Source of the DNA: Streptomyces spinosus
Lineage (GTDB): Bacteria > Actinomycetota > Actinomycetes > Streptomycetales > Streptomycetaceae
Direction of reading: 5' to 3'
DNA length: 64,000 nucleotides
Assembly (NCBI RefSeq): GCF_020400655.1
Contig: NZ_JAINRC010000001.1
Location: 496,001-560,000 of the forward strand
Part shown: piece by piece, positions 1-6,478 of the stretch
How positions within the stretch are numbered: the stretch's first letter is position 1
Layout: each line of letters begins with the position of its first letter
The notes under the pieces: model-generated
The model's input: only the letters and a program-made list of their open reading frames with translations
Told to the model about the DNA's origin: nothing
Database searches by the model: none
Position numbers and translations under genes: made by a program

Positions 1-1344
1 CGGGGGCGCCGGGTCCGGGTGCCGCTCGGCCGGTTCCTGCTGGTCACCCTGATCGCCCCCGGTACGGCGGCGGGCGCGCTGATCGGCGCGGTGCTCGCGA
101 CCGCGCTGCTCGGCTGGGCCCTGCTGGTCCTCGCGCTGCTGCTCGGCGTGGTCTGGCTCGGCTGGGCGGCGGCGGTACCCCTGCTGCGCGGGCTGGAGCG
201 CGGCTGGGCGCTGCTGCGGGGCCTGCGCATGGCCTGCCCCCACCCCGGCTGTTACGCGCCGGTGCCGCTGGCCGTGCACCGCTGCCCCGGCTGCCCGGCC
301 CGCCACGCCGCGCTGCGGCCGGGCCGGTACGGCGCCCTGTGGCACGTGTGCGGCTGCGGGCGCAGGCTGCCCGCCACCCGGCTGACCGGGCGGGGCAGGC
401 TGTCGGCGCTGTGCCCGCGCTGCGAGCAGGTCCTGCCGCAGGCGGTGGCCACCACCCGGGTGGTGCACACACCGCTGGTCGGGGGCACCTCCTCCGGCAA
501 GACGATGCTCATGGCGGCCATGGTGGAGGGGCTGCACTCCTTTGCCCGGGAGGGCCGGCTGCGCGTCGAGTGGGCGACCTCCGCCGACCGCGGCGCCCAC
601 GCGGGCGTCAACCAGCAGCTGAACCGGTCCGGCTGGGCGCACGCCACGACCGGTGGGCCGCCACGCGCCCTCATGCTCACCGTGGCCCGGGGTCGCCGGC
701 GCCGGCTGCTGTACCTGTACGACCCGATGGGCGAGTCCGTGAGCGACGCCGAACGGGTGCGTGCGCAGGGATACTTGGCGCACGCGGACGGGGTCGTCCT
801 GGTCGCCGACGTCCTCGCCGACCCCACGGTGCGCGGCCGGCTCGGTCCGGCGGACGCCGAACGGGCACAGCGGGCGCGGCCGTCGGCGCAGGGCCCGCGG
901 ACGACGTACGAGCGGCTGACCGGCGAGCTGGCCGCGCTGACCGGACGGCGGCGCCGGCTGCCGGTGGCCGCGGTCGTCACCAAGCGGGACGTGCTGGACC
1001 GGCTGACCTCGCTGCCGGTGCCCGGCGACGGCCGGATCGACCACTGGCTCGGCGACATCGGCCTGGGCGCGCTGGTGCGGGCCCTCGGCCACGACTTCGG
1101 GTCGGCCCGCTACTGGGCGGTCAGCTCCCACGCGGCCACCGGCACCGGCCCGTTGGAGAGCGAGCAGCGGCGCGCCGCGGAACCGGTGCTGTGGCTGCTC
1201 GCGGCCTCCGGGTTGCGCACCGGCCCGCTGACCGGGCGGGCGGGCGGCGGGGCGGGCCGGGTGCCGTGGCCCCGGCGGCGGCGGGAGGGCGCCGGGCAGG
1301 GCGGCGGGAACGGCGACAGGGAAGGCGGTTACACCCCGGTATGA
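1..1344 (+). CDS. Membrane-anchored zinc-ribbon GTPase-like protein, 5' end possibly cut
   Basis: The frame is open to the window edge. A GTG at 19 is usable, but the true start may lie upstream. Counting from that GTG (441 aa), residues 5-55 are two hydrophobic helices. A cysteine-rich block follows with CxxxxC/CxxC/CxC/CxxC pairs (C73, C78, C89, C92, C111, C113, C132, C135), as in zinc ribbons. Next come a P-loop GGTSSGKT (155-162), a DxxG-like DPMGE (235-239) and a TKRD (321-324) in the place of the G4 motif NKxD. These are the marks of a P-loop GTPase domain on the cytoplasmic side of the membrane. The tail is Arg/Gly-rich. The stop overlaps the next start (ATGA). The vWA, phosphatase and kinase genes downstream suggest it belongs to a TerY-P type signalling locus. 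The GTPase call is from motifs only and the partner is unknown. Confidence 0.78.
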   Translation, partial: RGRRVRVPLGRFLLVTLIAPGTAAGALIGAVLATALLGWALLVLALLLGVVWLGWAAAVPLLRGLERGWALLRGLRMACPHPGCYAPVPLAVHRCPGCPARHAALRPGRYGALWHVCGCGRRLPATRLTGRGRLSALCPRCEQVLPQAVATTRVVHTPLVGGTSSGKTMLMAAMVEGLHSFAREGRLRVEWATSADRGAHAGVNQQLNRSGWAHATTGGPPRALMLTVARGRRRRLLYLYDPMGESVSDAERVRAQGYLAHADGVVLVADVLADPTVRGRLGPADAERAQRARPSAQGPRTTYERLTGELAALTGRRRRLPVAAVVTKRDVLDRLTSLPVPGDGRIDHWLGDIGLGALVRALGHDFGSARYWAVSSHAATGTGPLESEQRRAAEPVLWLLAASGLRTGPLTGRAGGGAGRVPWPRRRREGAGQGGGNGDREGGYTPV

Positions 1345-1524: not shown

Positions 1525-2217
1525 GTGAGTGACATTCCCGGCGGGCCGATGGCCAACCGGCCGGTCCACTTCATCTGGCTGCTCGACTGCTCGTACTCGA
1601 TGCAGGGCGAGAAGATCGCCAAGCTCAACTACGCGATCAGGGAGGCCGTTCCGGAGATGCGGTCGGTGGCCCACGACAATCCCGCGGCCCAACTGCTGCT
1701 GCGCACGGTCACCTTCTCCACCACCGCGCAGTGGCACCACCAGACCCCGGTCCCGGTCGACGACTTCACCTGGCAGGACGTGCAGGTCGACGGCATGACC
1801 AACCTCGGTGAGGCGCTGCACCTGGTGGCGCGCGAGCTCCAGACGCCGCCGATGCCGCAGCGGGCGCTGAAGCCGGTGCTGGCGCTGGTGTCGGACGGGG
1901 TGCCCACCGACGACTGGAAGGCGGGCCTGAAGGCCGTGGACGCCACCCCGTGGGGCCGCAAGGCGGTCCGGGTGGCCATCGCGATCGGCGCGGACGCGGA
2001 CCGTGGGGTGCTCCAGGAGTTCCTCGGCAACCCGGAGCTGCAGCCGCTGGACGCCAACAGCCCCAAGCAGCTGGCGGCGGCGATCCGCTGGGCGTCGACG
2101 GCGGCCGTGAAGGCGGCTTCCCAGCCGGTCGCCGGTGACGGCTCCGGGGTGAGCACCGCGAAACAGCCGTACGCGCCGCCGGTGCTGGACGACGACGATG
2201 ACGACGACGTGTGGTGA
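1525..2217 (+). CDS. TerY-like von Willebrand factor A (vWA) domain protein
   Basis: This 230-residue protein is essentially one vWA domain. The metal-ion-dependent adhesion site is complete: DCSYS (D21, S23, S25), a Thr in GMTNLG (T92) and an Asp in LVSDG (D124). These residues coordinate Mg2+ and bind partner proteins. Length and sequence resemble TerY, the vWA member of the TerY-P triad (TerY, PP2C phosphatase, kinase) described for tellurium-type stress systems. The C-terminus is a run of seven aspartates before VW, which is unusual and could bind metal. The start is GTG, about 6 bases after AAAGGAA. The stop lies within the start of the phosphatase gene, so the two are probably translationally coupled. 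Confidence 0.88.
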   Translation: MSDIPGGPMANRPVHFIWLLDCSYSMQGEKIAKLNYAIREAVPEMRSVAHDNPAAQLLLRTVTFSTTAQWHHQTPVPVDDFTWQDVQVDGMTNLGEALHLVARELQTPPMPQRALKPVLALVSDGVPTDDWKAGLKAVDATPWGRKAVRVAIAIGADADRGVLQEFLGNPELQPLDANSPKQLAAAIRWASTAAVKAASQPVAGDGSGVSTAKQPYAPPVLDDDDDDDVW

Positions 2218-3176
2218 CGCTCGGGGTGCGGCGGTGGGAGACGCTGGCCGACAGCGTCCAGGGCGTCGGCAAGCGGCGCAACCAGGACTGGTACGCCTGC
2301 CAGGGCACCGGGTCCGGTCCGGACCCGCTGGTGCTGGCGGTGGCCGACGGGCACGGCTCTGCGGTGCACGCGCGCAGCGCGCTGGGCGCGCGGTTCGCCG
2401 TGGACCGGTTCGTGGTGCTGGCCGGCGCCTTCGGGCGGGCGGCGCACGACTGCCATGAACCGGGGCGGCTCGCCCGGCTGATGACGTACGCGCGGGACGA
2501 CTTCCCGCGGGCGCTGGTGCACGAGTGGCGGCAGGAGGCCCTCGGCCACTGGGACCGCAACCGCCCGGTGGTCGAGGAGGCCTCCCGGGAGCCGGGGACC
2601 GAGGAGAAGCTGGTGCTGTACGGCACCACGCTGATCGGCGCGGTGCTCACGCCGTGGCTGTTCGTGGCCTGGCAGATCGGCGACGGTGACCTCGCGGTGG
2701 TGGAGCACGACGGCACGCTGGTCCGGCCGCTCGCACCCGCCGAGGAGGACCTGGGCGACGAGACCGAGTCGTTGTGCGGGCGGGAGGCGTGGCGGGCGAT
2801 GCGGATGCACTGGGCGCCGCTGTTCGAGGAGGCGCGGTCGCCCCGGCTGGTCGTGCTCTCCACGGACGGCCTGTCGAAGAGCTTCGCGTCGGCCGACGGG
2901 TACCGCGAGTTCGTCAGCGGGCTGGCCGGGCGGCTCGCCCAGGAGGGCGGCGCGGGTGTCCGCGAGGCCCTGCCGGACTGGCTCGCCCAGGCGTCCCGGT
3001 ACTCCGGGGACGACACGACCCTGGCGGCGGCGGTGCGCCCGGCACCGGTCCCGGCGGGCACTCCTGCGGCCCCCGGCGGCCCGGAGGGGCCCGTCGAGCC
3101 CGGTGCGGCGGAGGCGCGGACACCACCCGGCCCGGACGGCGGCGAGGTGGACACGGAACGGACAACGGAGACGTAG
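2211..3176 (+). CDS. PP2C-family serine/threonine phosphatase (TerY-P triad)
   Basis: This 321-residue metal-dependent phosphatase has RRNQD (22-26), ADGHG (45-49), a GTT...GDGD block, STDGLS and SGDDTT, which together supply the PP2C aspartates that hold two Mn/Mg ions. The last 45 residues are a Pro/Ala/Gly-rich tail without predicted fold. Two tandem GTG codons (2211, 2214) can start it; both overlap the vWA stop. The kinase ATG follows its TAG directly. It should reverse phosphorylation by the kinase next door, probably on the vWA protein or the GTPase-like protein. That substrate assignment is inference from the known triad. Confidence 0.9.
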   Translation: MVTLGVRRWETLADSVQGVGKRRNQDWYACQGTGSGPDPLVLAVADGHGSAVHARSALGARFAVDRFVVLAGAFGRAAHDCHEPGRLARLMTYARDDFPRALVHEWRQEALGHWDRNRPVVEEASREPGTEEKLVLYGTTLIGAVLTPWLFVAWQIGDGDLAVVEHDGTLVRPLAPAEEDLGDETESLCGREAWRAMRMHWAPLFEEARSPRLVVLSTDGLSKSFASADGYREFVSGLAGRLAQEGGAGVREALPDWLAQASRYSGDDTTLAAAVRPAPVPAGTPAAPGGPEGPVEPGAAEARTPPGPDGGEVDTERTTET

Positions 3177-4514
3177 ATGAGCGGCATGCTCGATGACGGG
3201 ACGCGCCTCGCGGCGGAGAACGGTGACGACGTCGAGATCCTCGGCTTCCTCGGCGCGGGCGGCCAGGGCGAGGTGTACCGGGTCCGGACACCGGACGGGG
3301 AACGGGCCCTGAAGTGGTACTACCCGACCTGCGCGACCGCCGACCAGGAGGCGATCGTACGGGAGCTGGTGACCCGGGACTTCGCCGACGACCGCTTCCT
3401 GTGGCCGGAGGCCTTCGTGCCGGAGCACCGCGGCTCGTTCGGCTATCTGATGGGGCTGCGCCCGGACCGCTACAAGGGACTCCCGGCGCTGTTCCGGCGG
3501 CAGTTGCGCACCAGCCCGCGCGCGCTGCTGACGGCCTGCCTCTACACGGTGGAGGCCTATCAGGCGCTGCACTCGCGGGGCATCGCCTACCGGGACATCT
3601 CCTGGGGGAACATCTTCTTCGACCCGGACACCGGTGACGTGCTGGTCTGCGACAACGACAACGCGGTGGTGGAGGGCGACGCCAGCGGCATCTCGGGGAC
3701 CATGGAGTTCATGGCGCCGGAGCTGGTGCGCGCGGACCCGGGCGCGCGTCCGGGCACCCAGTCCGACCTGCACTCGCTCGCGGTGCTGCTGTTCATGCTG
3801 CTGATGAACCACCACCCGCTCAAGGGCCGGCGCGAGCTGGGCATCCACTGCCTGGACGAGGCCGCGGAGCGCAAGCTGTACGGCAGGAGCCCGCTGTTCG
3901 TGTTCGACCCGGCGGACGACGCCAACCGGCCGGACCCGCTGGAGCACGCGACCGTGCTGGCCACCTGGGACGCGGCGGCGGAGCGGCTGCGGGAGCTGTT
4001 CCGGCGGTCGTTCACGACGGGACTGCGTGATCCCGCGGCCCGGGTGCGGGAGTCGGAGTGGCGGGACGCGCTGCGGGCGGTGCTGGACGCGGTGGTCGAG
4101 TGCGCCGCGTGCGGGCGGCAGAACATGACGGAGCCGGGCGAGAACCCGCCGCCGCGGGACTGCTGGGGGTGCGGGGCCCGGCTGGTGCTGCCGCCGCGGC
4201 TGACGGTGACCACTCCCCCGCCCCGCACCGAGCACCACATCCGGCTGCGCCGCGCCGCCCGGGTACAGGCCCACCATCTGCTGCCCGAGCCGGCGCGGCA
4301 CGACTGTTCGGACGCGGCACTCGTCGCGGAGCTGGTCGAACACCCCAGGAAACCGGGGCGGTTCGGGCTCGCCAACCGCTCGCGGGAGACCTGGACGGGC
4401 ACCCGCTCGGACGGCACCGTGCAGAAGATCGAGCCCGGCCAGACGGTGCCGCTGCGGTCGGGGCTCGACCTCGACCTCGGCGGCGGGGTCCGGGCGGTGG
4501 TGCGAGCCCGGTGA
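3177..4514 (+). CDS. Atypical protein kinase with C-terminal zinc ribbon (TerY-P triad)
   Basis: The 445-residue protein begins with a kinase fold: glycine loop LGAGGQGEVY (24-33), ATP lysine K46, catalytic loop YRDISWGN (138-145), metal-binding DND (159-161) and MAPE (179-182). The catalytic Asp and Asn are kept. The usual HRD has become YRD and DFG has become DND, typical of the kinase in TerY-P loci rather than of the Pkn/PASTA kinases. A four-cysteine zinc ribbon follows (C309, C312, C329, C332), then a beta-rich tail that ends in an FHA-like or immunoglobulin-like stretch I cannot assign. The gene directly abuts the phosphatase gene. The three genes form one transcription unit ending at a strong hairpin. 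Confidence 0.88.
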   Translation: MSGMLDDGTRLAAENGDDVEILGFLGAGGQGEVYRVRTPDGERALKWYYPTCATADQEAIVRELVTRDFADDRFLWPEAFVPEHRGSFGYLMGLRPDRYKGLPALFRRQLRTSPRALLTACLYTVEAYQALHSRGIAYRDISWGNIFFDPDTGDVLVCDNDNAVVEGDASGISGTMEFMAPELVRADPGARPGTQSDLHSLAVLLFMLLMNHHPLKGRRELGIHCLDEAAERKLYGRSPLFVFDPADDANRPDPLEHATVLATWDAAAERLRELFRRSFTTGLRDPAARVRESEWRDALRAVLDAVVECAACGRQNMTEPGENPPPRDCWGCGARLVLPPRLTVTTPPPRTEHHIRLRRAARVQAHHLLPEPARHDCSDAALVAELVEHPRKPGRFGLANRSRETWTGTRSDGTVQKIEPGQTVPLRSGLDLDLGGGVRAVVRAR

Positions 4515-4556: not shown

Positions 4557-4880
4557 TCACAGCCCCAGGGCGTTGATGAGCTGCTGGGTGAAGGCGAGGC
4601 TGCCGGTGCCGGCCGAGGCCGCGATGGCGATGGTCTCCAGCGCGGAGCGGATCCGGCCGCGGTTCGGCGGCAGGCCGTCCTCGGCGGACTCCTGGAACTG
4701 GGCCTGGATGATCTCGCCCTGGGGCACCAGTTCCGGGTACTCGGCGCGCAGCGTGTCGGTGAGCCGCTGCGCGAGGTCCATCATGGTGGGCAGGTCGGGG
4801 TGGGCGTGGTTGATCTGGATCTGCCCGTGGTCGCCGAAGTTGGCGGGGCCGTTGACGTTGCCGAAGTTGTAGGTGCTCAT
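4557..4880 (-). CDS. Small protein with N-terminal amyloid-like motif and helical C-terminal domain
   Basis: I chose the ATG at 4880 (107 aa). It follows GAGGACAGGAC, and the protein then opens with STYNFGNVNGPANFGDHGQI, a Gly/Asn-rich motif ending in alternating IQIN. A GTG at 4955 is a rival start (132 aa): it overlaps the upstream stop as GTGA and would add 25 Pro/Arg-rich residues. Residues 30-107 look alpha-helical, with a hydrophobic C-terminal helix (IAIAASAG to LINALGL) that could insert into a membrane or drive oligomerization. The motif recurs at the C-terminal end of the upstream gene product. I know no named family. The layout resembles bacterial amyloid signalling pairs, where one partner templates the fold of the other to activate an effector. 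Confidence 0.75.
   Translation of the reverse strand: MSTYNFGNVNGPANFGDHGQIQINHAHPDLPTMMDLAQRLTDTLRAEYPELVPQGEIIQAQFQESAEDGLPPNRGRIRSALETIAIAASAGTGSLAFTQQLINALGL
4809..4874 (-). other. Copy 1 of shared Asn/Gly motif (codes for residues 3-24)
   Basis: The encoded peptide is TYNFGNVNGPANFGDHGQIQ followed by IN. Against copy 2 the invariant positions are TYN-GNV-GP-NFG-HG and a beta-prone hydrophobic end. The DNA is also similar, for example CCGAAGTTG and the GTTGTAGGT at the start of both copies as read on the + strand. Confidence 0.8.
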
Positions 4881-4951
4881 GTCCTGTCCTCGCTCGCGGT
4901 CCGGCGGCGCGCCCCGGACCGGAGGAGCCGTCGGATGGGTGGGGTTTGCGG

Positions 4952-6478
4952 TCACGGCTTCGGCGCGGGCGGGCCTGATCCCGCGGGATTGGGGCCGCCC
5001 TGGGCTCCCGGGCCGCCCTGGGGTCCGGGCCCTTGCTGCCCGCCCAGGAGGATCGTCCCGTGGGCGCCGAAGTTGCTGGGACCGCTGACGTTACCGATGT
5101 TGTAGGTCTGCGTGGTGATGACCTGTACGGCCTTGTCGAAGGAACCGGTGTCGATGTTGTGGTCCCGCAGGAACCGTTCCGTGGCGGTCAGCACGCCCTG
5201 CTGGAGCCGGAACAGGAAGTCCTGCGCGTCGGTGCGTTCGGCGTAGCCGGCCTCGTCCCAGGCGCCGAGGTCCTCGCGCAGGCTGCCCGTGGCGCCGTAG
5301 TCGTGGCGGACGTGCTGCCGGGTGATGGCGCGGCGGGCCCTGGCCAGCGCCCGGTCGTGGTCGCCGCGCCAGCGGTGGCGCCGCAGGATGCGGCCGAGGG
5401 CGCCGCGCAGTTCGGGGCCGGTGCGGCGGGTGGCGTACCGGAACAGGTCCCACCACCGCTCCCAGGGGGCGACCGGGAGGCGGTCCACGCGGTAGAAGCG
5501 GCCGTCCAGCGGCGGTATCGCGTAGGCGGCCACCTCCCAGGTCAGGCTGGGGTGCTGGAGGATCGCCCGCAGGTACATGGAGACGATCAGCCGGCCGCCC
5601 TCGCCGACGCGTTCCAGGCACAGGTGGGTGCGCATGCCGGCGCCGGGCGTCTGCAGGCCGGCCTGCACGAGTCGCTTGGGGATCTGGGCGCGGGGCCGCC
5701 GGGTGGGGTCGGGCACCAGCTCCGGTATGAGGTGGGCGTTGCTGCCGAGGACGTAGAGCCGGTTCCTGGCCCGCAGTCCCTGGAGCCCGGAGATGTTCTC
5801 CATGTGCCGTGCCACGTAGGTGTGCAGGTCGATGACGTCGAACGGGCGCATCGGCAGTTTTCCGCCGCCCGGGGCGTCGGCGGGCCTGCTGACGTCGATG
5901 GGCTGCCAGACGGTTTCCTTGATCTTGTCGCCGCTGCCGACGAACGGCTTGGTGTAGGCGGCCTCGTCTGCGTAGGGCAGGACGTTGGCGCGTTTCAGGT
6001 CGTGCAGCGCGGCCTCGGCCTCGGGTTCCACCGGGGGGGCAGTCTGCTCGGGTCTGTCGGTGGAGAGGAACACGTCCCGTGCCGTGTCGCGGCTGCGCGC
6101 CTGGGCGTGGCGGACCAGTGTCCAGGCGACCGCGTAGGCGCCGAGAGGGCCAAAAATCGCCACCCATCCGAGTGACCGGTGTCCGTTGACCAGCCCCCAG
6201 AGCCCGACGAGGAGCGTGAGGGCCACGACCGCCTGGAGGCAGGCGAGCCGGCGGTCGAGGGCGGCGCGGCGGCGGGTGGCCACGCGCGCGTGCCGGGCGA
6301 GGGCGACGAAGTTGATGTTGAGGCTGAGCCCGATGGCGTTGAGCCGGTCCCCGGTGAGCATCCGGTCGGCGTACAGGGCGAAGTCGTCGTCGAGGTGCAC
6401 CGAGGCGCTCAGGCGCCGGGTCACCCCGTCCTTGCGGTACTGCGGCAACGGCGGCAACGCCCTGCCCGTCCCACTCAT
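4952..6478 (-). CDS. Two-helix membrane protein with C-terminal amyloid-like motif
   Basis: The product has 508 residues. Residues 79-97 and 104-123 are two hydrophobic helices. The rest is soluble: a large region (about 150-450) rich in Arg, Leu and Trp, with no enzyme motif that I recognise. Near the C-terminus (457-479) sits TYNIGNVSGPSNFGAHGTIL, the same motif as at the N-terminus of the downstream small protein. A Gly/Pro/Gln tail completes it. The stop overlaps a possible GTG start of that gene. In known systems a sensor with such a terminal motif nucleates aggregation of an effector carrying the same motif. The arrangement suggests that this membrane protein is the sensor. Function is inferred from architecture only. 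Confidence 0.75.
   Translation of the reverse strand: MSGTGRALPPLPQYRKDGVTRRLSASVHLDDDFALYADRMLTGDRLNAIGLSLNINFVALARHARVATRRRAALDRRLACLQAVVALTLLVGLWGLVNGHRSLGWVAIFGPLGAYAVAWTLVRHAQARSRDTARDVFLSTDRPEQTAPPVEPEAEAALHDLKRANVLPYADEAAYTKPFVGSGDKIKETVWQPIDVSRPADAPGGGKLPMRPFDVIDLHTYVARHMENISGLQGLRARNRLYVLGSNAHLIPELVPDPTRRPRAQIPKRLVQAGLQTPGAGMRTHLCLERVGEGGRLIVSMYLRAILQHPSLTWEVAAYAIPPLDGRFYRVDRLPVAPWERWWDLFRYATRRTGPELRGALGRILRRHRWRGDHDRALARARRAITRQHVRHDYGATGSLREDLGAWDEAGYAERTDAQDFLFRLQQGVLTATERFLRDHNIDTGSFDKAVQVITTQTYNIGNVSGPSNFGAHGTILLGGQQGPGPQGGPGAQGGPNPAGSGPPAPKP
5042..5110 (-). other. Copy 2 of shared Asn/Gly motif (codes for residues 457-479)
   Basis: The encoded peptide is QTYNIGNVSGPSNFGAHGTI plus LLG, matching copy 1 at about 14 of 22 positions. 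It is followed by a low-complexity GGQQGPGPQGG tail that could act as a flexible linker. Confidence 0.8.

Follow-up and report, generated by a model that had tools for sequence, protein, structure and literature searches.

Why should two adjacent genes, whose products are otherwise unrelated, carry nearly the same short Asn/Gly-rich motif, one at the end of its protein and the other at the beginning? The question is raised by a locus of Streptomyces spinosus (GCF_020400655.1, NZ_JAINRC010000001.1, positions 496,001–560,000, forward strand); the whole stretch of 64,000 nt that was analysed is called the window here. The first gene encodes a predicted membrane receptor and the second a small helical protein, its partner. 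A first-pass annotation had read the two as an amyloid signalling pair. It is well supported by the sequences that the matched motif pair connects the receptor to its partner. We give a probability of roughly 0.6 to the reading that an activated, membrane-anchored receptor recruits and nucleates its own partner via the same motif at opposite ends of the two proteins, probably by templating a cross-beta fold. The genes and motifs in question are the following.

4952..6478, minus strand: receptor ("sensor") gene, 508 aa, with 158 homologues at E<=1e-3 among 7998 candidates scored
5048..5107, minus strand: receptor-side motif TYNIGNVSGPSNFGAHGTIL, residues 458–477, mostly of low confidence in the structural model
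4557..4880, minus strand: partner gene, 107 aa, 71 nt downstream of the receptor gene on the same strand
4815..4874, minus strand: partner-side motif TYNFGNVNGPANFGDHGQIQ, residues 3–22, of low confidence in the structural model

The shared window motif is real and is not a product of low-complexity chance. Receptor residues 458–476 (TYNIGNVSGPSNFGAHGTI) match partner residues 3–21 (TYNFGNVNGPANFGDHGQI) with 73.7% identity over 19 residues and E 6.5e-08 in BLASTP. The next match between the two proteins has E 1.2, and no further similarity between their bodies was detected. A profile built from receptor motifs only, all of them from other loci and some from near-identical relatives, found the two window open reading frames (ORFs) with E 4e-12 and 7.6e-10, followed by a match at 4.6. 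When a motif profile that included both window motifs was run against the 9.17-Mb genome, these two places alone appeared at E <= 10. The motif is rich in G, N, S, T, V, and I, with N and G together making up 38%, and in both proteins it lies in a low-confidence end of an otherwise structured model. The motifs were found at the two termini where the first-pass annotation had placed them, and its remark that the rest of the proteins are unrelated holds in BLASTP.

The pairing of the motifs in neighbouring genes, the lack of which the same annotation had named as a refutation, is seen across many lineages. Loci are denoted by L-numbers, the genome of the window by G000, and other sampled genomes by further G-numbers. 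One pattern-based scan of genome contigs, with the receptor alignment as the query, gave 52 loci, labelled as Streptomyces (50), Microtetraspora (1), and Actinobacteria bacterium (1). A homologue of the small protein lies directly downstream of the receptor in all 52, with the partner start codon adjusted in some of them. In a genus sample of 246 genomes, which overlaps with the scan set in that many genomes are common to both, 24 carry a close receptor (at least 48% identical), and the partner is adjacent in 23 of these. Of the 120 listed receptor homologues, 119 have the motif at 10 bits or more; the remaining one, P0188, is apparently out of frame. The small family holds the motif less constantly (at least 10 bits in 40 and at least 5 bits in 53 of its 72 listed homologues).

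In more distant receptors, with approximately 25–33% identity, the C-terminus bears a motif of quite another sequence, which recurs at the start of the next gene. Examples, given as receptor and partner motifs, are the pairs of L058 (GDDKRVYVRDNHGALYAHSKHA and GDDKRTYVKDNHGTLYAHSKHV), L055 (YEIQHVEGSGHHIGPQGKVIH and YRIGHVSGTGHIMGPNGVIH), and L117 (NNGVMLSGGSIQAESLAVGAGARA and NEGISMSGGRIEAGALAVGRGARA). A family survey covered 137 loci, of which 120 remained as distinct loci with a downstream ORF. At a sharing cut-off of score >= 50, a motif-sharing downstream ORF is present in 110 of the 120, and the motifs differ widely between loci. The median score is 76 for the own partner and 33 for the second-best downstream ORF, and shuffled receptor ends (a single shuffle per end) reach at most 52. 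Second-best scores of at least 50 occur five times; two belong to tandem motif ORFs (L149, L213), and the rest look like low-complexity or overlapping frames. At L149 and L213, one receptor is followed by two tandem motif-bearing ORFs, the first of which is very short.

At the level of sequence, the pairs are insulated from one another. Seventeen genomes hold two or more pairs above the score cut-off, and for their 36 receptors, the own partner scores higher than any other of the genome in 42 of 42 comparisons. Without the cut-off, it wins 52 of 54, and both failures involve L245 (G000:C3:302467-303633), a receptor paralogue in the window's own genome that lacks the motif and a motif partner and lies below the cut-off. 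Many sampled genomes of the genus have matches comparable to L245 in strength and extent.

The two motifs also change together. Own pairs have a mean cross-score of 74.2 (59 pairs), compared with 52.9 for permuted partners (standard deviation 1.5; maximum 59.4 of 10,000). The partial Mantel correlation, with both protein bodies as covariates, is 0.64 in the same 59 pairs, whereas the highest of 2,000 permutations reached 0.24. An earlier run with 55 pairs had the same outcome, and in it, the own partner wins 84% of comparisons between receptors whose bodies are 20–35% apart. The co-variation can be followed by eye. GGQNQF is found in both proteins of L051 and of L106, AG[VI]IGD[NH]GT in both proteins of L047, L097–L099, and L112, GNAFG in both proteins of L107 and L109–L111, and NYH[VI]NNVNGPAIFG in both proteins of L077.

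Small genes that stand alone show what becomes of the motif. Thirty small-gene loci were fetched with flanks of approximately 1.5 kb; 14 have the receptor (and all 14 the kinase described below), and 16 are orphans with neither in these flanks. Another window neighbour, namely a nitroreductase, ketopantoate reductase, or glycosyltransferase homologue, is present at 13 of the 16 orphan loci, which fits the same chromosomal place. None of the orphan genomes belongs to the 24 that carry a close receptor, and several have a distant one. With the receptor-built motif profile, 54 of 55 paired partners reach at least 5 bits, compared with 5 of 16 orphans (medians 30.4 and 0.05), and the helical domain of the orphans remains recognisable. 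Therefore, the partner motif mostly decays once the receptor is gone.

The domain that follows the motif can be exchanged. The 110 partners comprise 9 PNP, 4 TIR, and 3 EAD1 proteins and 94 others, of which 78 are shorter than 165 aa. In the window's own genome, a second receptor (L127; G000:C11:670998-672479) is followed by a partner that starts with its motif, and GHNNSFV.G.NNTTNSGTQ is present in both. The motif is followed in this partner by a CAP12/Pycsar-family TIR domain (PF10137, E 1.2e-25). A convergent, Thoeris-like ThsA_Macro gene (PF20016, 3.8e-59) adjoins the motif-TIR pair.

L134:7232-8164, plus strand, and L127:764-1498, minus strand: second receptor pair and ThsA_Macro gene, on G000:C11, approximately 170 kb from the window pair

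ThsA_Macro homologues are present in all three other TIR loci that were fetched (L237, L243, and L244). Each of these three also has a second, weaker homologue of the ThsA_Macro gene on the other strand. The motif precedes a PNP_UDP_1 phosphorylase in three tested partners (2.8e-15 to 8.9e-24) and EAD1 in four (L181, L185, L189, and L191; 4.6e-12 to 8.4e-15). In other genera of the same class, L200–L203, L205–L208, and L210 have the motif fused with PNP_UDP. The partners of L187, L190, L196, L230, and L236, of approximately 150–200 aa, seemingly have two motif copies ahead of the last domain, and such double motifs recall the tandem repeats of other signalling amyloids.

The architecture of the receptor was described from an AlphaFold2 model based on an 80-sequence alignment (mean pLDDT 89), with the following parts in addition to the motif.

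6065..6310, minus strand: two long helices (residues 57–98 and 101–138 of the model), a predicted membrane hairpin
5150..6001, minus strand: soluble alpha/beta domain with a long helix, residues ~160–443
4955..5047, minus strand: Gly/Pro/Gln-rich C-terminal tail after the motif

By hydropathy, the sole clear hydrophobic segment (residues 76–94) lies in the helix pair, and at least one such segment is present in 120 of 123 surveyed receptors, duplicates included. The alpha/beta domain weakly resembles a helix-grip (START/Bet v 1-like) fold, a likeness that is not conclusive. The low-confidence end of the model, residues 464–503, takes in most of the motif. Searches of the receptor against Pfam, NCBIfam, and PADLOC gave no family above the cut-off. 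The L127 paralogue likewise has no Pfam family above the cut-off, and the scan for NLR domains covered these two receptors. The description of the window protein as a sensor without an NLR domain thus agrees with its Pfam result.

The partner was modelled with a mean pLDDT of 76, residues 1–25 being below 50, and two further features can be distinguished.

4566..4793, minus strand: helical domain of four helices, residues 30–105 of the model
4560..4637, minus strand: hydrophobic, Gly-containing C-terminal stretch, residues 82–107

The hydropathy average (GRAVY) of the last 26 residues is 0.9, compared with −0.7 for the part before them. A GTG at 4955 was considered as the start of the gene and rejected; the conserved start is the ATG at 4880. 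The window partner has no EAD match at E<=1 in the Pfam scan, and structure searches with the receptor model and with the partner model gave nothing firm for either. As a small bundle of helices that ends in a hydrophobic one, the window partner would be a membrane-acting effector, and it could equally be an adaptor.

Convergent with the pair is a set of conserved genes. The first-pass annotation was right in its observation of the pair, yet it left these GTPase, vWA, PP2C, and kinase neighbours unconnected with it. Homologues were counted in the 52 scan loci.

3177..4514, plus strand: Ser/Thr protein kinase (Pkinase 3.6e-15), 52 of 52 loci
2211..3176, plus strand: PP2C phosphatase (PP2C_2 1e-31), 52 of 52 loci
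1525..2217, plus strand: vWA protein (VWA 4e-5), 52 of 52 loci
19..1344, plus strand: DO-GTPase2 (3.8e-13), 50 of 52 loci
L113:9376-15647, upstream of the window: a 777-aa uncharacterised protein, a second DO-GTPase2, and GAP1 (N2, M, and C)

Four further window neighbours that were tested have homologues in 7 to 24 of the 52 loci. The GAP1 protein just upstream of the window matches GAP1-N2 (5e-46) and GAP1-C (1.4e-122), and the candidate for FNIII repeats, L113:9376-11709, has no Pfam match. With this GAP1 and the second DO-GTPase2 counted in, the operon convergent with the pair belongs to the GAP1-N2/DO-GTPase systems, with the kinase-PP2C-vWA theme described in the available part of PMC7159879. 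The stretch L135 (G173:C19:1636001-1656000) carries a close receptor with a recognisable motif and no homologue of the small family or of the window neighbours in its 20 kb.

How might such a pair work? The best reading of the sequences is an NLR-independent class of receptors that would recruit and nucleate their partners by homotypic motifs. The predicted receptor domain would sense a signal at the membrane, and the convergent DO-GTPase, GAP1, vWA, PP2C, and kinase genes may set the threshold of the receptor. Clustering of receptors at the membrane would bring their disordered motifs together, and the clustered motifs would directly template the N-terminal motif of the partner in a self-propagating cross-beta contact. 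The sequences themselves show the matched motifs, their pairing, co-variation, decay, and insulation, and the exchange of domains; direct contact of the motifs and the amyloid step are inferred. The templating would concentrate, and so activate, the C-terminal domain of the partner. The output would be the helical bundle, as an adaptor or membrane-acting effector, in the window pair and the depletion of nicotinamide adenine dinucleotide (NAD) or nucleosides in sister pairs. By means of the tag, the membrane protein likely activates no partner but its own. We lean slightly toward the wider view of receptor/partner signalling that uses many motif "codes" insulated from one another, with at least two of them in the genomes of many strains, and that can be combined with GAP1/DO-GTPase-kinase operons or with Thoeris-like TIR/ThsA modules. 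What stood of the amyloid-style pair originally proposed is the matched, adjacent motif pair without an NLR, and the case for it is stronger than was claimed given the co-variation, the distinct motifs of paralogues, and the fusions to TIR, PNP, and EAD1.

Several observations weigh against this nucleation model. The low model confidence of the motifs suits any disordered docking motif, and Pfam listed no BASS (bacterial amyloid signalling sequence) or HET-s family. A RHIM profile was also absent among the Pfam matches at E<=1, but such short motifs are easily missed. The close receptor L052 of G173 has no partner match even in 20 kb, and 3 of the 123 surveyed receptors lack a hydrophobic segment. 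Ten of the 120 distinct loci fall under the sharing cut-off. Among them, L118, L123, and L128 have no convincing partner (the genome of L118 and L128, G428, is a draft assembly), L241 is unclear, and L185, L194, L199, L222, and L247 look by eye like real, weak pairs. When all 110 partners are ranked, the own one comes first for only 44 receptors and within the top five for 89, as related loci have motifs in common. In the 55-pair run, own does not beat other where the receptor bodies differ by less than 20%, because the motifs are nearly identical there. Finally, 5 of the 16 orphans still reach 5 bits.

The main rival, which we consider unlikely but worth serious attention, is homotypic docking without amyloid. 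The motifs would form a stoichiometric beta-arch or beta-solenoid zip in a constitutive receptor-partner complex that does not propagate. Pairing, co-variation, and insulation suit any specific homotypic contact, and richness in G, N, S, T, V, and I also suits the rungs of a beta-solenoid. Indirectly against it, PNP_UDP and helical (HeLo) domains partner experimentally tested fungal signalling amyloids, and TIR domains carry some of the predicted BASS motifs, according to the portions of PMC9815663 and PMC7889193 at hand. It is considerably less probable that a third protein (the kinase, vWA, or GAP1) reads the motif as a tag, both proteins being clients of one adaptor. The constancy of the kinase, PP2C, and vWA genes beside the pair in the 52 loci would favour such a reader. 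However, the other pair types at L055–L060 show no homologue of a window neighbour in the ~1.5 kb flanks fetched, and the tags differ between pairs of one genome, so the reader would need to change as often.

Concerted evolution, in which gene conversion or slippage between nearby similar DNA keeps the motifs alike without function, is very improbable. The similar segments are only ~230 nt apart, and codon identity at identical residues is 0.739 compared with 0.697 in cross pairs, a value that none of 2,000 permutations reached. However, a value of 0.719 (746 positions) is expected from the codon usage of the two genes by itself, and this closeness indicates that gene conversion is not the explanation. 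Codon identity is 0.59 over 123 distant loci (duplicates kept), and the decay of most orphan motifs also stands against it. Chance resemblance of low-complexity Asn/Gly-rich termini would draw on the compositional bias noted above and deserves almost no credence given the E value in the pair, the lack of a third copy in the genome at E <= 10, the conservation across 52 loci, the co-variation, and the gap between shuffled ends and own partners.

The nucleation model can then be compared with known systems. The primary paper on NLR/BELL bacterial amyloid signalosomes is reportedly that of Dyrka et al. (2020). In BASS systems, the motif is borne by the N-terminus of an NLR and the C-terminus of the effector, as far as the excerpts of PMC7889193 describe them. 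These systems resemble the present one in that adjacent receptor and effector genes have one of many short motifs in common. They occur mainly in actinobacteria and cyanobacteria, and small helical, TIR, and CHAT domains are among their effectors (PMC7889193, same excerpts); here, TIR is found in 4 of 110 partners. The differences are that the receptor is not an NLR and has a predicted membrane hairpin and an unclassified alpha/beta domain, that the motif is at the C-terminus of the receptor and the N-terminus of the partner, the reverse of BASS, and that EAD1 partners and a convergent GAP1/DO-GTPase-kinase operon occur. Fungal amyloid signalosomes (HET-S, HELLP/PNT1, and PUASM with PNP_UDP) share pairwise matched motifs, insulation of paralogous pairs, and pore-forming or PNP_UDP effectors with the pair, according to the parts of PMC7889193 and PMC9815663 available. 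In contrast, they are NLR-based and eukaryotic, their amyloid was experimentally shown, and their motif positions are reversed. The same excerpts mention amyloid motifs together with PNP_UDP and TIR domains in systems linked to NLRs (PMC7889193, PMC9815663). By analogy, the pair would work like the bacterial and fungal amyloid signalosomes, and it is outside BASS as defined because its receptor is not an NLR and its motif positions are reversed.

Two other frameworks overlap with the locus. The third theme of the GAP1-N2/DO-GTPase systems is matched by the two DO-GTPases, GAP1-N2, kinase, PP2C, and vWA beside the pair; the account in the accessible sections of PMC7159879 is without a motif-sharing receptor/partner pair, and the word "amyloid" does not occur in these sections. 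EAD homotypic adaptors, as presented in parts of PMC7159879 and PMC8195603, are small helical domains that couple sensors to effectors, and some partners here are EAD1 proteins. Unlike in these adaptors, the coupling here would run via a short motif, disordered in the window models, ahead of the helical domain.

If the nucleation model is true, bacterial amyloid signalling would not be tied to NLRs, and there would be a second, membrane-based class of receptors with reversed motif polarity. Immune-type signalling could then proceed without the NLR sensors known so far. The paired, lineage-specific motifs are candidate orthogonal recognition codes for studying the specificity of signalling amyloids. 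For some TIR effectors, the pair whose TIR protein is encoded next to a ThsA gene suggests a possible mode of triggering. Uncharacterised actinobacterial genes and a part of the GAP1/DO-GTPase systems would gain a testable role in cell-death-type defence.

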